This document shows positions 21,979-28,535 of a DNA stretch of 64,000 nucleotides, in pieces. This DNA comes from Algorimicrobium algoritergicola (lineage in GTDB: Bacteria > Bacteroidota > Bacteroidia > Flavobacteriales > Flavobacteriaceae). The position numbers and the translations under genes were made by a program. The notes under the pieces were generated by a model. That model searched no databases. It worked only from the letters and a program-made list of their open reading frames with translations, and was not told the origin of the DNA. The DNA lies in contig NZ_VSKL01000001.1 of the NCBI RefSeq assembly GCF_008086165.1, forward strand, positions 496,001 through 560,000, in the 5' to 3' direction. Within the stretch, counting starts at the first letter, position 1; each line of letters begins with the position of its first letter.

Positions 21979-22983
21979 TTAATTAAATTCAATTTCATAA
22001 TTCAACCGATTAGAAGCCGATTTTAATTCCGTTTTCGATTTGAAAATATTGCGAAACAAGAGCTTATTCCAACCAATTTTTTGGGAATAGCTATTAAAGC
22101 TTTCTTCACGCCAATTAAAGCCATCACGCCAAAATTTTTGTGGAGAAACATAGCAAAATGTATAATCGAAAATAAAGCTAGAATCGTTTACTTGATTATG
22201 ATTTGGAATCGTATCAGACGCTAAAAGTGTAATATTATTAGCTTTACAACTTGCTTTAATTTGGCTAATGATTTTTGGATAATCAACTCTTAAGGTTTCC
22301 AAATCAAAATCGTTGTATTCGGTATTTCCAATTTTCTGAATCGGGCGAATTTGAAGTATATCAAAACTTTCGCCATTAAAATGTTCAAAGAAATCGGCTA
22401 ATTCATAAAAATTATCCTTGTTGAAGGTGTAATTGATACGCACTTTAAAATCGTATTGTTTTTTCAATTTTTCGAAAGCCTTGAAAGCGGCATGAAATTT
22501 TTCATAGCTGGCCTTTTTCATAAAGTTTTCATAGCTTTCTTTATGAACACCATGAAGGGAAATGGTAAATTCATTTAAACCAGCTTTTATAAGTGCTTCA
22601 ATTTTTTCTTCATCTAATAAATTAGCATTCGTAGTTATAGAAATATAGGGAACGTTATAGGTTTTTCCCAATGCTACAACCTTTACCAAATCTTTATATA
22701 AAGTTGGTTCCGTTCCACAGCCAATTTGAAGTTTTAAGGCACGTTTAAAAATGGTTTGGGCAACCTGCTCTAACTCATCTTCTTTAAATTGGCCTTTTAA
22801 GGTTTTTACATAATCGGCATCTGTAAAATAACACATTTTACAACGCAGATTACAGGCCATAACCGGGTCTAAATTTACGGCCAAGTAGCGTTGATTAAAC
22901 GTATGCAACAAATAGAGCCCCAGAAATTTAATTCTGTGGCTTTTTATTTTTCTGTTTAATTTTAACAGCTTGTAAACGTCCAT
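21979..22983 (-). CDS. Radical SAM protein of unknown substrate
   Basis: A 334-residue radical SAM enzyme with the cluster motif Cys44-x3-Cys48-x2-Cys51 (CNLRCKMC) and the following GCGTEPTLYKD and ISITTNANLL segments (the GGEP-like SAM-binding loop is CGTEP here). The C-terminal 100 residues have only one Cys (FDYTFCYVSPQKFWRDGFNW), so no SPASM or twitch cluster motif is evident. Its ATG directly abuts the TAA of trhO, so the two genes form an operon. This could hint at tRNA or nucleotide modification, but MoaA/NifB-like and peptide-modifying radical SAM families look similar at this level. Substrate: unknown. Confidence 0.82.
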   Translation of the reverse strand: MDVYKLLKLNRKIKSHRIKFLGLYLLHTFNQRYLAVNLDPVMACNLRCKMCYFTDADYVKTLKGQFKEDELEQVAQTIFKRALKLQIGCGTEPTLYKDLVKVVALGKTYNVPYISITTNANLLDEEKIEALIKAGLNEFTISLHGVHKESYENFMKKASYEKFHAAFKAFEKLKKQYDFKVRINYTFNKDNFYELADFFEHFNGESFDILQIRPIQKIGNTEYNDFDLETLRVDYPKIISQIKASCKANNITLLASDTIPNHNQVNDSSFIFDYTFCYVSPQKFWRDGFNWREESFNSYSQKIGWNKLLFRNIFKSKTELKSASNRLNYEIEFN

Positions 22984-24054
22984 TTAATTGTTTTGGCTTA
23001 AGGTATCAAATATATTACGTAAGTCCTTTTTGAAAGGCAAATGATCGGCTCGACCCTTTTTAAAGATATCGTTACTATTTCCTTGACCTTTGCGTAAGGC
23101 TTTTTGCTCCTCAAAGGATAATTGAATAATATCCTGACAGGTAGTAGAACAGCAATTTTCCATTTTTTCTTTGCAGGATTCACACTGAATAAATAGTAAA
23201 TGACACGCTTCGTTGGCACAATTGGTGTGCAAATCAGCAGACTCACCACATTGATGACATTGTGCAATAACATCGTCAGATATACGCTCTGAACGACGTT
23301 CATCAAACACAAAGTTCTTACCAATAAATTTATTTTCTAAACCTTTTGCTTCTACTTGGCGTACATAATTAATGATACCACCTTCTAATTGATACACATT
23401 TTTAAAACCTTTGTGTTTGTAATACGCACTCGCTTTTTCACAACGAATACCACCTGTACAATACATAACCAGTTTTTTATCCTCTTTATGGTCTCGTAAA
23501 TCAGCTTCAATAATATCTAAAGACTCCCGAAACGTATCAACATCTGGTTTTACAGCATTTATAAAATGACCTATTTCACTTTCATAATGATTTCGCATAT
23601 CTACCAAAACCACGTTTGGATCGTCAATAAGCTGATTGAATTGTTCGGCTTCAACGTGAATCCCTTTGTTGGTTACATCAAACGTGTCATCGTTTAAACC
23701 ATCGGCTACAATTTTATCACGCACCTTCACTTTTAATTTTAAAAATGAAAAATTATCGTGCTCAATAGCGATATTTAATCGCACATTTTCTAAAAACGAA
23801 ATGGTATCTAAATGATTTTTAAACAGATTGAAATTATCTGCTGGTACGGAAAGTTGGGCGTTTATGCCTTCATTGGCCACATAAATACGTCCTAAAACGT
23901 CTAGGTTGTTCCAGTTTAGAAATAGGTGATCTCTAAAAATGTTTGGATTGTCAATTTTCGCGTATTTGTAGAAAGAAATAGTCAAGCGTTCTTTTCCCGC
24001 TTGCTCAATAAGTTCAGTTCTTTCTTTTGCGCTTAAGGTATTGTACAGTTGCAT
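22984..24054 (-). CDS. trhO: tRNA uridine(34) 5-hydroxylase, rhodanese-type
   Basis: The 356-residue TrhO (YceA-like) protein makes 5-hydroxyuridine at tRNA wobble position 34. Domains: an N-terminal acylphosphatase-like/UPF0176 part (FYKYAKIDNPNIFRDHLF), a rhodanese domain (VLVDMRNHYESEIGHF, then VMYCTGGIRCEKAS with catalytic Cys199 and the TGGIR loop), and a Cys-rich C-terminal tail (CHQCGESADLHTNC, CESCKEKMENCC) that probably binds zinc. The length matches the longer Bacteroidota/Bacillus form. It is cotranscribed with the radical SAM gene that follows without a gap. Confidence 0.92.
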   Translation of the reverse strand: MQLYNTLSAKERTELIEQAGKERLTISFYKYAKIDNPNIFRDHLFLNWNNLDVLGRIYVANEGINAQLSVPADNFNLFKNHLDTISFLENVRLNIAIEHDNFSFLKLKVKVRDKIVADGLNDDTFDVTNKGIHVEAEQFNQLIDDPNVVLVDMRNHYESEIGHFINAVKPDVDTFRESLDIIEADLRDHKEDKKLVMYCTGGIRCEKASAYYKHKGFKNVYQLEGGIINYVRQVEAKGLENKFIGKNFVFDERRSERISDDVIAQCHQCGESADLHTNCANEACHLLFIQCESCKEKMENCCSTTCQDIIQLSFEEQKALRKGQGNSNDIFKKGRADHLPFKKDLRNIFDTLSQNN

Positions 24055-24093
24055 GCTATACTAATTGTTTAAGGTTAAAGAATATTTTAGCTG

Positions 24094-24101
24094 CAAATGT
24101 A
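24094..24101 (-). promoter_or_regulatory. TACATTTG promoter element for trhO
   Basis: On the minus strand TACATTTG fits the TAnnTTTG consensus, 40 bp before the trhO ATG. No well-spaced TTG was found upstream, so the -33 half is weak. Confidence 0.6.
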
Positions 24102-24132
24102 CTATTTTTTGAGTGAATCGGAATTTTCACCA

Positions 24133-24169
24133 AACAAAAAGCACTTTATAATGGTTTATAAAGTGCTTT
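24133..24169 (-). terminator. Strong terminator behind the 30-codon gene
   Basis: A 14-bp stem (24138-24151 with 24156-24169, loop TGGT) is followed on the minus strand by TTTTTGTTT. It lies downstream of the small ORF and upstream of the trhO promoter, so on the minus strand it separates two transcripts. It could also work weakly on the plus strand. Confidence 0.85.
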
Positions 24170-24225
24170 AAGTAGACTAACTCGTTATTACTATTTTTTT
24201 TAATTCAAAAAAATAACAATCCGAG

Positions 24226-24318
24226 CTAACCGCCATCGGCTTTGCAGCTTCCGTTTATAAATACGGATACTGAAACGCCTGTTTCTCCTATTAATAATAT
24301 TTTTCTAATAAATCTCAT
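24226..24318 (-). CDS. 30-residue small protein gene, unknown function
   Basis: The ATG at 24318 opens a 30-codon frame ending at TAG 24226. It begins MRFIRKILLIGETGVSVSVF and ends INGSCKADGG: a basic start, a hydrophobic middle and a short polar end with one Cys. I do not recognise it. Evidence that it is real is contextual: an ECF-like promoter motif lies upstream on the same strand (24345-24373) and a strong terminator lies downstream (24133-24169), giving a compact unit of about 200 nt between recA and trhO. Alternatives are a small RNA or a leader peptide. The 386-bp stretch 24055-24440 otherwise contains only the trhO and recA upstream regions. Confidence 0.5.
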   Translation of the reverse strand: MRFIRKILLIGETGVSVSVFINGSCKADGG

Positions 24319-24344
24319 ATCAAAAGTTTCCCAGCTTTATTAAG

Positions 24345-24373
24345 TAGATGCAAAAACATCAAAAAGGTTGCGT
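24345..24373 (-). promoter_or_regulatory. ECF-type promoter motif upstream of the small gene
   Basis: On the minus strand ACGCAACC (24373-24366) and GCATCTA (24351-24345) are separated by 14 nt. The same two elements with the same spacing stand before the ECF sigma operon at 25484-25512. GCAACC resembles the -35 and CATCTA the -10 of ECF promoters. The small ORF's ATG lies 26 bp downstream. Confidence 0.7.
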
Positions 24374-24440
24374 CATAAAATGGTAAAGTGAAAAAAGAGT
24401 GGTATTTTAGCAACACTTTTACAAGATAAAAAATACAGAA

Positions 24441-25442
24441 ATGAGCAACGAAAAAGAAGCTAAATTAAAAGCGCTACAACTTACTTTAGACAAACTAGAT
24501 AAAGCGTACGGCAAAGGAACGGTAATGAAAATGAGTGATCAAGCTGTTGTTGATGTCGAGGCTATTTCCTCGGGTTCTTTAGGATTAGATATTGCACTAG
24601 GTGTTAATGGATATCCAAGAGGTCGTGTTATAGAAATATACGGTCCAGAATCTTCTGGTAAAACAACGTTAACATTACATGCTATTGCTGAAGCTCAAAA
24701 AGCTGGTGGTATTGCGGCTTTTATTGATGCAGAACATGCTTTTGATAGAACTTACGCAGAAAAATTAGGCGTAGATATTGATAATTTAATTATTTCGCAA
24801 CCAGATAATGGTGAACAAGCTTTAGAAATTGCCGATAATTTAATTCGTTCTGGTGCCATTGATATTGTTGTTATTGACTCGGTAGCTGCTTTAACACCAA
24901 AAAGTGAAATTGAAGGTGAAATGGGTGATTCTAAAATGGGATTACATGCGCGTTTAATGTCTCAAGCCTTACGTAAATTAACAGCATCTATTAGTAAAAC
25001 CAATTGTACGGTAATTTTCATTAACCAATTACGTGAAAAAATTGGGGTTATGTTTGGAAACCCAGAAACAACAACTGGTGGTAATGCATTAAAATTTTAT
25101 GCTTCGGTACGTTTAGATATTAGACGTTCAACACAAATAAAAGACACAGACGGAAATGTGCAAGGAAATAAAACCAGAGTTAAAGTGGTTAAAAATAAAG
25201 TAGCACCACCTTTTAGATTGGCAGAATTTGATATTATGTATGGCGAAGGTATTTCCAAAGTAGGTGAAATATTGGATATTGCTGTAGAATTTGAAGTTAT
25301 TAAAAAAGCCGGATCGTGGTTTAGTTATGGCGACACCAAATTAGGACAAGGTCGTGATGCGGTTAAAGCGCTTATTAAAGATAATCCCGAACTCATGGAT
25401 GAGTTAGAAGTAAAAATAAAAGAGCTTATAAAATCAGCTTAA
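24441..25442 (+). CDS. recA: Recombinase A
   Basis: The 333-residue RecA forms the ATP-dependent filament on single-stranded DNA for homologous recombination and the LexA/SOS response. Visible motifs: Walker [10 protein letters not shown] (about 68-76), Walker [13 protein letters not shown]-like loop region [25 protein letters not shown] (loop L1/L2 area, shown here as separate parts of one segment), [21 protein letters not shown], and a C-terminal domain [16 protein letters not shown]. The length is typical. It is a single-gene unit with a clear terminator; no recX is adjacent. Confidence 0.98.
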
Positions 25443-25483: not shown

Positions 25484-25512
25484 ACGCAACCTTTTGGCCT
25501 TTAGTGCATCTA
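25484..25512 (+). promoter_or_regulatory. ECF-type promoter motif of the sigma operon
   Basis: ACGCAACC (25484-25491), 14 nt, GCATCTA (25506-25512). It is identical in both blocks and spacing to the site before the small minus-strand gene at 24345-24373. It lies 37 bp before the first ATG of an operon encoding an ECF sigma factor, which fits autoregulation. A small hairpin ATAGTG/CACTAT (about 25513-25529) follows in the leader. Confidence 0.72.
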
Positions 25513-25549
25513 TATAGTGAAACACACTATTTAAGGTTTGCCTCGAATT

Positions 25550-25963
25550 ATGAAAAAATTGTTTGTTTGCCTGTTTGCCCTTGCATCATTAGCCTGTAGT
25601 GTTAATGATGAAGATATCCAGTCAAGCACTGTAATGATGTTACCAGTAGAAAGTGCTATTGTTCCTAATGAATTTGTTAGTGGTCAAGAATATGAAATTT
25701 TCATAACCTACAAGCGACCAACAGAATGCCATGTTTTTAAAGACATTTATTCTCAAACACAATCAGATGGATTGATGATAGCCATAATGTCTACCGTTTT
25801 TAATGAAAATAATGATTGTCCTCCAAGTAGCGAAACGGTAGAAAAATCATTTAAATTCAAACCGAGTAGAGATGAAAATACGTATGTATTTAAATTTTGG
25901 CATGGTAGCAATGGATCAGGAGAAGATGAATTTATCATTTTTGAAGTTCCAGTAGTCGATTAA
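25550..25963 (+). CDS. Predicted lipoprotein, first gene of the ECF sigma operon
   Basis: A 137-residue protein with a lipoprotein signal (MKKLFVCLFALASLAC, lipidated Cys at residue 16), followed by acidic and polar residues (SVNDEDIQ). The mature part contains three Cys (CHVF, DCPP and the lipid Cys) and no family motif I recognise. The ATG at 25550 is chosen over an in-frame TTG at 25538. It is 17 bp from the sigma gene and behind the ECF-type promoter, so it is probably part of the regulatory operon. It could be a sensor or accessory lipoprotein, but this is inference. Confidence 0.75.
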   Translation: MKKLFVCLFALASLACSVNDEDIQSSTVMMLPVESAIVPNEFVSGQEYEIFITYKRPTECHVFKDIYSQTQSDGLMIAIMSTVFNENNDCPPSSETVEKSFKFKPSRDENTYVFKFWHGSNGSGEDEFIIFEVPVVD

Positions 25964-25980
25964 TTAATGTTTAACTAAAT

Positions 25981-26532
25981 GTGTTTCATGTGAGTTTAAA
26001 CCAACTCATACAAAAATGTAGTAATCATGATACTCAAGCACAAAGCGAATTATACCAGCTCTTTTCGAGCAAATTGTTTTCGGTTTGTTTAAAGTATTCA
26101 AGGAATTACGCCGAAGCGGAAGACAATCTGCAGGACGCGTTTTTGACTATTTTTAAAAAAATTAGTCAGTTTAATAATAAAGGTTCTTTTGAAGGTTGGT
26201 TGAAACGCATTGCTATTAATACGGCGTTACAACGCTATAGAGGTCAAGGCGTTTTTGAAATAATAAATGAAGATTTCATAGCAGATGAAGACATAGAAAT
26301 TGATGATGAAGACATTTCACTCGATTTTCTGCTGAAAATTATTCAAGAGCTACCAGATCGGTATAGATTGGTGTTTAACATGTATGTTTTAGATGGTTAT
26401 TCGCATAAAGAAATAGCTGATTTATTGAGCATTTCAGATGGCACATCAAAATCGAATTTGGCAAGAGCACGAAAAATATTAAAAGATAAAATTGAAGCAT
26501 ATAAAGCGGGTTTTAACGCGCAATCTTTATAA
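25981..26532 (+). CDS. RNA polymerase ECF-type sigma-70 factor
   Basis: A 183-residue sigma factor with region 2 (FSVCLKYSRNYAEAEDNLQDAFLTIFKKI, here quoted only as landmarks SRNYAEAEDNLQDAF and GSFEGWLKRIAINTA) and region 4 (LPDRYRLVFNMYVLDGYSHK followed by EIADLLSISDGTSKSNLARA, the helix-turn-helix). Regions 1 and 3 are absent, as expected for an ECF factor. There is no in-frame ATG; the start is a GTG at 25981 or 25990. Its TAA overlaps the ATG of the downstream anti-sigma gene, so sigma and partner are translationally coupled. The upstream ECF-like promoter suggests that it transcribes its own operon. Confidence 0.92.
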   Translation: MFHVSLNQLIQKCSNHDTQAQSELYQLFSSKLFSVCLKYSRNYAEAEDNLQDAFLTIFKKISQFNNKGSFEGWLKRIAINTALQRYRGQGVFEIINEDFIADEDIEIDDEDISLDFLLKIIQELPDRYRLVFNMYVLDGYSHKEIADLLSISDGTSKSNLARARKILKDKIEAYKAGFNAQSL

Positions 26533-28442
26533 TGAGTAATAAAAAACACATCGACAGAATTTTCCAAGAATCCTTCAAGGATTTTGAGGCGAAGCCCAAT
26601 CCTGAATTGTGGTCTAAAATTCAAAACGAGATGGCATTAGAAACGGAAAAGCCTAAAGCTTTCCCAATCTGGATGAGTATAGCAAGTATTGCAGCCGTTT
26701 TAGCCGTATTAGTCACTATTGGTTCAGTAGTATTTACTGGCACCAACAATCCTGCTGCTACAGATAAAAAAATTGTAGATACCCAAACAAGATCTAGTGA
26801 TGATGTATTAAATTCTAACAAAACAACTGGTGCTTCTGAAAAAAATTCAACAAACAAAAACAATATAGTTGTTGATGATCCGAAAGCGACTTCAAATAAT
26901 CCTTCAGAATTTAACAATGAAAGCATTGCGAATACGGATATAGATAGTAATGGTAATCCAATAGCTAGTGAAAATTCTGAAAGGGATTCTATTACAAATT
27001 CTGATAAATTAAATAATGCTACCGCATCTTCAAGCAGAAATACAGCAGTTGCCAACTCTGAAAATAGAAATACTAAAAATGCTAACAGTAATTACGCCAA
27101 TAAGCCTAACACAATAAAAAACAGCAACAGCCTTAATAATCAAAATAACAAGACTATTAATAACGGAATTGCTAGTCAAGATAACACATCAAATCCTAAC
27201 AAAAATGGATTGGTAAACGAATCGAATACCACGAGTAATTCGGTAAATAATACTATTGAAGCTACAAATAATGTTGTGGTTCAAGAATCTGAAGCTTCAG
27301 AAAACGCAATTAATAATTCAGTAAACAGAACAGGTATTGCAGCAAATTCAGTTTCAAATAATAGTTCTGAAACTGATAAATTAAACGCTATTACTACCAA
27401 TGAAACAGTTAATAACACAAATAAAACGATACAGAATAATAACAATAATACGGTAGCTTCAACTATCAACAGCGCGAACCAAAGTAATAAAACGGCATCT
27501 GATGTACAGCGTGCCGTTTCTACTTCGGAAACCGATAATCTGTTGAAAGAAACAAGCGCGCAAAATGCTATTGCTTGGAATGCTAAGACAAGCAACACAC
27601 CTCAAAATGAAAAAGAAAAAGAGGAAAACTTAATGGTTGGTGATTCGCTAGTTAGTGAATCACCTTCAATTGAGGAAGCTATTGCTCAAGCCGAAGAAAC
27701 CAGTGAAAAGGAAGAAGATGAAAAACTAGTAAATAGGTGGCAAGTTCAAGCAAACATTGCGCCTGTTTACTACAATTCGTTAGGGAAAGGCTCGCATATT
27801 GATGACGAGTTTGTATCCAATTCTAAAAGTGGTGAAACCAATACCAGCTATGGTGTAAATGTAAGTTATGCTATTAGTAAAAAATTAGCTATTCGCTCCG
27901 GTATTAGCTCCTTAAATTTAAGTTACGATACGGATAATGTTATTTTATACAATTCGCCAATTACTAATACGCCTGACAATACAAACCCACTGCGCAACAT
28001 TAATTTAGAACCTGGAAGTACCACGCTGAATGCTTTTAGTGGTGATAATTTAGGTTTTCAGCAAATTAATAATGAGTTATATAATGCAGCCATTAGTCAA
28101 CGATTAAGTTATTATGAAGTTCCTGTAGAACTGGAATACAAATTAGTAAATAATCGCTTTGGCGTAAATATTATCGGTGGAATGAGTACCTTCTTTTTAA
28201 ATGATAACGAAGTGTATTCGGAATTTGAAGAATATAAAACCTATATAGGTGAAGCAAACAATGTAAATAGTGTCAGTTTTAGTACCAATTTAGGAATTGG
28301 ATTGAATTATAAATTCACAGATAAACTCCTATTTAATTTTGAACCAACCTTTAAATACCAATTAAATGGTTTTGATAATACCTCTGGTGATTTCAGACCT
28401 TATATTATAGGTGTTTATACAGGTTTTAGTTATAAGTTTTAA
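26532..28442 (+). CDS. Putative dual-membrane anti-sigma factor: TM segment, Asn-rich linker, outer-membrane barrel
   Basis: A 636-residue protein coupled to the ECF sigma gene by TAATG overlap. Residues 1-44 (MSNKKHIDRIFQESFKDFEA ... LWSKIQNEM) are a cytoplasmic anti-sigma-like segment. Residues 45-69 are one membrane helix. About 75-385 is a linker very rich in Asn, Ser and Thr, then acidic (EEAIAQAEETSEKEEDEK). From about 400 to the end the sequence (WQVQANIAPVYYN, GVNVSYAISKKLAIRSGISS, YYEVPVELEYKL, FGVNIIGGMSTFF, IIGVYTGFSYKF) is an 8-strand-type outer-membrane barrel. One chain would thus cross both membranes. This matches the dual-membrane-spanning anti-sigma (Dma) type described in Bacteroides. 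Function as an envelope sensor is inferred. Confidence 0.82.
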   Translation: MSNKKHIDRIFQESFKDFEAKPNPELWSKIQNEMALETEKPKAFPIWMSIASIAAVLAVLVTIGSVVFTGTNNPAATDKKIVDTQTRSSDDVLNSNKTTGASEKNSTNKNNIVVDDPKATSNNPSEFNNESIANTDIDSNGNPIASENSERDSITNSDKLNNATASSSRNTAVANSENRNTKNANSNYANKPNTIKNSNSLNNQNNKTINNGIASQDNTSNPNKNGLVNESNTTSNSVNNTIEATNNVVVQESEASENAINNSVNRTGIAANSVSNNSSETDKLNAITTNETVNNTNKTIQNNNNNTVASTINSANQSNKTASDVQRAVSTSETDNLLKETSAQNAIAWNAKTSNTPQNEKEKEENLMVGDSLVSESPSIEEAIAQAEETSEKEEDEKLVNRWQVQANIAPVYYNSLGKGSHIDDEFVSNSKSGETNTSYGVNVSYAISKKLAIRSGISSLNLSYDTDNVILYNSPITNTPDNTNPLRNINLEPGSTTLNAFSGDNLGFQQINNELYNAAISQRLSYYEVPVELEYKLVNNRFGVNIIGGMSTFFLNDNEVYSEFEEYKTYIGEANNVNSVSFSTNLGIGLNYKFTDKLLFNFEPTFKYQLNGFDNTSGDFRPYIIGVYTGFSYKF

Positions 28443-28498: not shown

Positions 28499-28535
28499 GA
28501 AAGCTATTCTGTGCCAAGAGTAGCTTTTTTTTGTT
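28499..28535 (+). terminator. Terminator of the ECF sigma operon
   Basis: AAAGCTA and TAGCTTT pair around a 13-nt loop and are followed by a run of Ts (to 28532). The site is 57 bp beyond the stop of the anti-sigma gene. Confidence 0.75.

Follow-up and report, generated by a model that had tools for sequence, protein, structure and literature searches.

An ECF sigma operon beside recA in Algorimicrobium algoritergicola with a predicted Dma-type anti-sigma factor spanning both membranes

A 64,000-nucleotide stretch of the Algorimicrobium algoritergicola draft genome (contig NZ_VSKL01000001.1, positions 496,001 to 560,000; 3.54 Mb genome), referred to as the window and numbered from its first base, was analysed for an operon that lies downstream of recA. 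The operon occupies window positions 25485-28442 in the order promoter, lipoprotein-like gene, extracytoplasmic function (ECF) sigma factor gene and a gene for a protein of 636 residues. This last protein is very probably a dual-membrane-spanning anti-sigma (Dma) factor. The features of the operon are as follows.

25485..25512 (+): operon promoter-like site, CGCAACCTTTT-N10-GCATCTA; from a dyad search of upstream regions and genome counts
25550..25963 (+): lipoprotein-like first gene, 137 residues, ATG at 25550; from translation, conserved upstream of sigma
25990..26532 (+): ECF sigma factor, 180 residues, GTG start (alternative 25981); from translation, Pfam, NCBIfam and a tree
26532..28442 (+): probable Dma-type anti-sigma factor, 636 residues; segment 1-45, membrane helix 46-68, linker 69-402, eight-stranded barrel 403-636

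The operon and its 636-residue product

Conservation was assessed in the best 80 of 561 confirmed relatives from a scan of named genomes, a set biased to near kin, in which Bizionia myxarmorum and B. argentinensis were the nearest named loci. The loci were chosen through the Dma-type protein itself, and losses of the one-chain form would go unnoticed among them. The sigma gene adjoined the Dma-type gene in all 80 Flavobacteriaceae-type loci. recA lay upstream in 78, the other two ending at a contig or locus edge, and a lipoprotein homologue preceded the sigma gene in 77. In one order-level relative (L061; L numbers denote loci) the lipoprotein homologue was placed after the Dma gene. The same neighbourhood was present in five genomes of the same genus. 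The barrel was detected in 35 of 60 related genomes, namely 33 of 37 from the same family (own genome included) and 2 of 23 from other families of the order, and its conservation therefore exceeds chance. A barrel search of the host genome gave one further match (E 0.1). Paralogues were sought by eye beside other sigma-region genes, from 110 N-terminal and 12 C-terminal residues of each gene that came next; the membrane helix, linker and barrel plan was absent from the 18 of 19 such neighbourhoods that were read (all but C23:250169, in stretch L072).

The complete protein was modelled with AlphaFold2 (AF2) using an alignment of 77 rows, comprising the window and 76 of the 80 loci (L126, L129, L142 and L144 were omitted). 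The model contained helices at 7-14 and 24-34, a membrane helix at 46-68, a helix at 380-393, and eight strands of at least 12 residues between 403 and 635. Confidence in the strands (predicted local distance difference test, pLDDT) was mostly at least 90, except in the loop region 471-520, which is long and variable among orthologues. Between residues 70 and 375, 270 of 306 residues fell below pLDDT 50. The overall values (mean pLDDT 63.1, predicted template modelling score (pTM) 0.48) are low, as expected for a chain of which half is disordered. Helix 46-68 was the sole long hydrophobic helix of the model, and a single inner-membrane crossing with the barrel located in the outer membrane is predicted. 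The linker 69-402 (334 residues; 22.2% Asn, 13.5% Ser, 11.1% Thr) is probably disordered, judging from the model. Its length spans 170-353 residues among the 77 rows and its sequence is poorly conserved. The 45 residues ahead of the membrane helix were well conserved in an alignment of the window with 32 of 40 fetched relatives (L032, which contains a run of N, and the paralogue-like L063-L069 were omitted), and the C-terminal residue was Phe in 77 of 77 rows.

An earlier note on this DNA had described a TAATG overlap of the sigma gene with the 636-residue gene, a membrane helix at 45-69, a linker of about 300 residues and a C-terminal barrel ending in Phe. This anatomy was borne out by the open reading frame translations and the model, and the barrel is predicted within the residues (400-636) to which it had been assigned. 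Comparison of the modelled barrel with solved structures, in which rows below a Z score of about 8 were disregarded, gave OprF (4rlc; Z 18.6, root-mean-square deviation (rmsd) 2.0 over 130 residues), OmpW (8qxp; Z 17.6), NspA (Z 17.3) and OmpA (1qjp; Z 16.6). OmpA, OprF and OmpW share the eight-stranded fold of the C-terminus; their barrels are not known to carry a tether to an inner-membrane anti-sigma factor.

The sigma factor matched Pfam region 2 (E 1.4e-15) and region 4 (E 6e-17). A second GTG in the same frame, at 25981, could also serve as start, and most displayed orthologues begin with MSL, in accord with a start at 25990. Membership of the sigma in group ECF21 was considered from a quick tree of 110 rows, made after omission of 7 near-copies or fragments; long branches were flagged and deep branching is unsettled. 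It placed the sigma, the Bacteroides-type sigmas and Dma3-like fusions within one starred set of 100 of the 110 rows, a set that also holds four host sigmas with non-Dma partners.

Kinship with Dma proteins

According to the available text of PMC13088901, the Dma plan comprises an anti-sigma domain, a transmembrane helix, a disordered tether and a C-terminal barrel, encoded beside an ECF21 sigma factor. The dma2 operon of Bacteroides thetaiotaomicron described there consists of das2, dma2 and BT_1557, Dma2/Das2 being BT_1558/BT_1559. Of this plan, the window locus shows a predicted N-terminal anti-sigma segment, a single transmembrane helix, a long tether, a C-terminal barrel and an adjacent ECF sigma.

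For comparison, 25 of 30 Bacteroides-type loci were used, namely five Dma2-type loci and 20 taken as Dma by plan; four fusions and L193 were omitted. The label Dma2-type, and the naming of this family (f25) as Bacteroidaceae, rest on synteny and on a DUF4943 match in the control Bacteroides ihuae. Kin of the barrel protein were present in 35 of 61 genomes of the family. A search for DUF4943 (PF16301) found it in 3 of 296 genomes of the phylum; the order sigma, barrel protein, DUF4943 was seen in two of these, of one genus, and not in the third. Profile comparison of the barrel with the 25-row set gave a probability of 99.5 and E 1.1e-22, and that of the N-terminal segment with the 25 Dma-plan proteins a probability of 99.0 and E 3.1e-18. 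Both ends of the protein therefore match Dma-plan proteins in the profile check that the earlier note had proposed, which supports its assignment of a Flavobacteriaceae Dma. The Pfam family OMP_b-brl was matched at E <=0.01 by 24 of the 25 Bacteroides-type rows and by 52 of the 77 rows of the window family, the window protein not among them. A Pfam scan of the window protein itself gave no match, and its NCBIfam anti-sigma match was sub-threshold (E 0.02, 14.9 of 100 bits).

The N-terminal profile was found in 85 of 296 genomes of the phylum, partly in frames of about 250 residues, and the anti-sigma segment can therefore exist without the barrel. Judged by these profile matches, the segment is a more widespread module, to which Dma adds a tether and a barrel. 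The window protein belongs to the already described Dma kind, to which the promoter, a mirrored site beyond recA and a third site elsewhere in the genome are added here. A literature search found no paper on a Flavobacteriaceae Dma; a 2024 Dma paper that lay outside the search may include such members.

The locus shares with Dma2/Das2 the common plan, the adjacent ECF sigma, homology at both ends and a promoter dyad of equal spacing. It differs from it in lying beside recA with a divergent small gene, and in the length of the protein (636 residues here, about 350-370 in the five Dma2-type rows). The last residue is Tyr in 11 of 25 Bacteroides-type rows, unlike the Phe that is uniform here. Dma1/Das1 belongs to the same family by its description in PMC13088901, where, in the text available, Dma1 works through NigD1; no NigD model was among the Pfam matches of the 23 lipoprotein rows examined here. 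Sigma-Dma fusions of the Dma3 type, also taken from the available part of that paper, contain the same modules, whereas sigma and Dma are two overlapping genes in the window. Natural single frames of 564-573 residues joining sigma and barrel (Dma3-like) were seen in the Bacteroides-type family at L195, L198, L201 and L202. At two further ECF loci of the host (L078:2908-5354 and L084:2917-5329) an anti-sigma gene is followed by another gene whose N-terminus looks helical and whose C-terminus is barrel-like. The idea of a split Dma at these loci, with a barrel-less anti-sigma factor and a separate barrel-like gene, gained no support from profile comparison (probabilities 0.9 and 5.1, with one single sequence each).

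The first gene of the operon contains LACS, which reads as a lipobox by eye and whose Cys was invariant in 23 of 23 aligned rows (the window and 22 of 77 lipoproteins); Cys 16, 60 and 90 were invariant in the same rows. Pfam scans of the window protein and 23 rows gave no family above cut-off, and no relative of solved structure was found at E 1. Assignment to DUF4943 was rejected, as the signal peptide alone could be aligned. The gene had been called an extra lipoprotein of this operon: it is real and conserved, and it is less singular than that wording implies, since the Dma2-type operon also carries a lipoprotein-like gene. There the gene is DUF4943 and comes last, after sigma and barrel protein, whereas the lipoprotein gene here comes first and is not DUF4943.

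Sigma contact, promoter and mode of signalling

Sigma and Dma were modelled as one chain from loci in which the two genes are in frame, the stop codon being read as Gly. Of the aligned loci, 21 were in frame, and a further 28 (of 59) contributed sigma only. For the pair L104 from Lacinutrix (sigma plus Dma 1-72, 254 residues), the model had a mean pLDDT of 83.5 and a pTM of 0.75. Dma residues 9-28 reached pLDDT 91-93 with sigma; in the window protein modelled without sigma, block 11-20 had 64 and block 21-30 had 76. The only two strands in the L104 model were sigma linker residues 103-105 and Dma residues 4-6 (block pLDDT about 70), and these would therefore pair. The modelled sigma matched best to sigmas held by an anti-sigma factor, namely SigW/RsiW (5wuq; Z 13.9 over 150) and CnrH/CnrY (4cxf; Z 12.0 over 149). 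For polymerase-bound sigma H and sigma L, the rmsd was only 21-28 where most of sigma aligned. CnrH/CnrY and SigW/RsiW are systems that are not known to include a barrel, in which a membrane protein binds an ECF sigma through a short segment in the cytoplasm, as is predicted here; the anti-sigma helices of the window protein may resemble CnrY. The model supports an inhibitory contact of the N-terminal segment with sigma. The interface whose absence would have refuted the earlier note was predicted with fair confidence, in a single chain that is no true two-chain test.

The conserved operon promoter has the form GCAACCTTTT-N10-GCATCTA, and the usual form upstream of the lipoprotein gene is that of the window site listed above. 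The dyad GCAAC-17-ATCT was present in 67 of 76 regions upstream of the lipoprotein gene, window included, and GCAACC-N14-16-CATCT was seen twice in the window against 0.03 expected. In the genome, 3 sites fit the 28-base form perfectly and 9 fit it when up to 3 mismatches are allowed (reversed control, 0), and a shorter form gave 5 sites against 3 for its control. In 40 related genomes a CCTTT-containing form gave 63 sites in 23 genomes (control, 4). Several strict matches in these 40 genomes had no fitting gene behind them (e.g. L248, L253, L255 and L265); some matches to the pattern are not promoters. Upstream of Bacteroides-type sigmas, TGCA-18-CGTC was found in 5 of 15 regions with spacing as at the window operon, and L171, L176, L177 and L178 carry GCAGC or GCAAC, 16 bases and CGTC, again at window spacing. 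The pattern fitted to the Flavobacteriaceae form was found in 1 of these 15 regions. A mapped ECF motif with a CGT -10 box is described for Flavobacterium psychrophilum in the available text of PMC9723704, its genes including YceA and an ECF sigma/anti-sigma pair. In a literature text search for the promoter string or the peptide end, the matches listed came from papers with other topics and contained the DNA string alone.

The third perfect site (G000:C22:376706-376733) lies 16 bases before a gene for a lipoprotein-like protein of 199 residues (L236:885-1526), which had no NCBIfam match at E 0.1. This gene stood behind a site in three of five same-genus genomes (L252, L254 and L272), the three that were read. 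In other genera some sites stood before small lipoprotein-like genes by eye (L256, L259, L261, L263, L269 and L270). Promoter-like sites with 3 mismatches were also seen at G000:C11:676824-676851 and 678747-678774, in the vicinity of a different ECF sigma (L073) and of a gene that by eye is Spy-like.

The best explanation of these observations, to which we assign a probability of about 0.68, is a Dma anti-sigma factor that holds sigma by its N-terminus and ends in the outer membrane. The first approximately 45 residues of Dma would hold the co-encoded sigma at the inner membrane. The chain would cross that membrane once, continue as a disordered periplasmic tether and finish in the outer membrane as an eight-stranded barrel of OmpA size. 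The barrel would most likely act as sensor by being itself a client of the outer membrane. Once it is inserted, Dma would be stable and sigma held; on failed insertion or disturbance of the outer membrane, the periplasmic part would be cut and the anti-sigma segment lost. Freed sigma would transcribe its own lipoprotein-sigma-Dma operon, and autoregulation from the window promoter is likely. It would also transcribe a divergent small RNA or peptide gene beyond recA and the further lipoprotein-like gene at the third site. We infer that control of sigma by Dma is negative. In Bacteroides, loss of two Dma proteins raises vesicle output. The B. thetaiotaomicron dma2 phenotype depends on das2 (available text of PMC13088901), which accords with Dma as a brake.

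The trigger itself is the more tentative part, and barrel loss is put forward at somewhat below even odds. It is favoured because the barrel fold is ordinary, because a linker so loose and variable would transmit changes of shape poorly, and because the dma2 phenotype needs its sigma (PMC13088901, as far as available). Direct coupling of outer-membrane state to sigma, suggested as a possibility in the earlier note, is plausible.

Several results weigh against this explanation. SigG1 (7qh5), solved without an anti-sigma factor, also matched the modelled sigma (Z 12.2). The model of sigma with the N-terminus is a single chain through a stop codon, which forces nearness, and comes from another species. 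The genome holds as few as three perfect promoter sites, and the dyad was missing from 10 of 15 Bacteroides-type upstream regions, some of which are cut short. One Dma2-type sequence compared with the window-family profile gave a weak match (probability 30, E 5e-4), and the frames of about 250 residues matched by the N-terminal profile are too short for the Dma plan.

Other readings of the same chain differ in what the barrel and linker do. In one, Dma would be a receptor resembling FecA-FecR signalling, fused in one polypeptide: surface loops of the barrel, in particular the long loop at about 475-518, would bind a ligand and the change would be relayed along the chain. Region 471-520 is long, of lower confidence and variable, as ligand-facing loops often are, but a disordered linker of 170-353 residues (77 rows) is ill-suited to relay a conformational change, and we regard a receptor as unlikely. 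The linker could instead gauge the distance or slack between the membranes, stretch freeing sigma or baring a cleavage site. At least 170 residues in all 77 rows are enough to cross the periplasm when extended, and poor sequence conservation fits such a role; a two-fold range of length (170 to 353) is odd for a ruler, however, and by reasoning only a coil of such length exerts little force, which makes a mechanical tether rather improbable.

Constitutive cleavage would yield an ordinary inner-membrane anti-sigma factor and a separate outer-membrane barrel. A low-complexity linker is readily cut and relatives too short for a barrel exist, yet the one-chain form is kept in 80 loci (chosen by this protein) and in the Bacteroides-type family, which would be surprising if the halves acted apart; this reading is improbable. 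The protein might also be no anti-sigma factor at all but a barrel protein of the outer membrane whose signal sequence is unusual and whose only tie to sigma is the shared operon, which would agree with the missing Pfam match and the sub-threshold NCBIfam match. Against this very improbable reading stand the 45 conserved residues ahead of the membrane helix, with their homology to the N-termini of Dma-plan proteins, and a sigma gene coupled in 80 of 80 loci. A probable Dma orthologue thus keeps the same position in most genomes of a second family, under a sharply defined promoter motif and with a tiny predicted regulon (three perfect sites), and so offers a system of few parts in which sensing by a two-membrane anti-sigma factor would be testable.

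The mirrored site and putative divergent small gene beyond recA

The remaining features lie around recA and at the end of the operon.

24441..25442 (+): recA, conserved neighbour outside the system; named by recognition of its translation
24345..24372 (-): second promoter-like site, CGCAACCTTTT-N10-GCATCTA, facing away from recA; 61 of 78 loci
24130..24338 (-): putative short transcript with hairpin 1 (overlapping the open reading frame), hairpin 2 and a terminator-like hairpin; predicted from fold z and covariation
24226..24318 (-): open reading frame for a 30-residue peptide (MRFIRKILLIGETGVSVSVFINGSCKADGG) within the divergent small stretch; related peptides at 36 of 62 loci, with a coding-like codon pattern
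28500..28533 (+): terminator-like hairpin 3' of the operon; by eye, unscored

The mirrored promoter-like site was found by pattern in the proportion of loci given above, with L123, L156 and L157 one base off. Downstream of it, ahead of trhO, lies a short stretch; at 41 of 62 loci a script identified a terminator there. The 209-nt stretch of the window had a fold z of -5.67. For comparison among loci, 31 of the 62 rows were aligned; they were chosen by sequence pattern and the structure was derived from the same rows, by which some covariation excess is built in. The two non-terminator hairpins were 96.1% paired, against 12.9-48.3% for slid controls. Cells changed on both sides numbered 33; shuffling gave 9.7, and none of 500 shuffles reached 33. 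A weaker measure, pairs with two-sided change, gave 7 against 4.7 (18 of 500 shuffles as high), and six of these seven pairs were within hairpin 1.

A peptide ending in C-K/R-x-D-G/D-G was encoded in 36 of 62 loci and was exactly 30 residues long in 28 of the 36, of the type M(K/R)(F/Y)..K..LGVSVxVxVN(S/G)(N/S)CKADGG. In 26 of 31 rows the frame ran uninterrupted to a common stop, and all changes at seven invariant residues were in the third base, which favours translation. In the other five rows, whose frame is broken, hairpin 1 was retained by eye. A shorter form without the peptide was present in 12 of 62 loci, and 14 fitted neither pattern. The short form (L127, L134, L147, L155, L158 and others) has a single ACTAACTC stretch before the terminator. 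The stretch has a coding-like codon pattern and hairpin 1 shows covariation; an RNA-only and a peptide-only reading are both compatible with this.

At a threshold of E 0.01 a covariance model had matches in 37 of 80 genomes; of the weak ones, the majority probably arose by chance. Strong matches (E <1e-6) were found in 19 genomes, one in each, some of them the model's own rows; in the 15 of these with a located Dma gene, the match lay within 6 kb of it. Rfam gave no match in the whole window at gathering score and 13 sub-threshold matches in 24040-24460, all well under their cut-offs. The peptide had one sub-threshold NCBIfam match, to the PtrA N-terminal domain (E 0.076, 13 of 31 bits), and no description of the divergent small gene was found in the literature search.

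In enterobacteria, sigma-E acts with its small RNAs. By analogy, Dma-held sigma might drive the mirrored small gene, as an RNA that also encodes the 30-residue CKADGG peptide, and this might form the effector arm of a Flavobacteriaceae outer-membrane stress circuit, an independent counterpart of sigma-E whose sensor is no more than a single chain linking sigma with the outer membrane; we consider this possible but doubtful. The small gene would be a direct readout as well as a candidate effector.

The peptide was also considered as a ribosomally synthesised and post-translationally modified peptide paired with the radical S-adenosylmethionine (SAM) gene beside TrhO. Of the 80 loci, 12 contained this gene, as did 10 of 35 peptide loci checked, some loci ending early, and the candidate was rejected as unsupported. 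In the window, a radical SAM gene lies directly after trhO at 21979-22983 on the minus strand.

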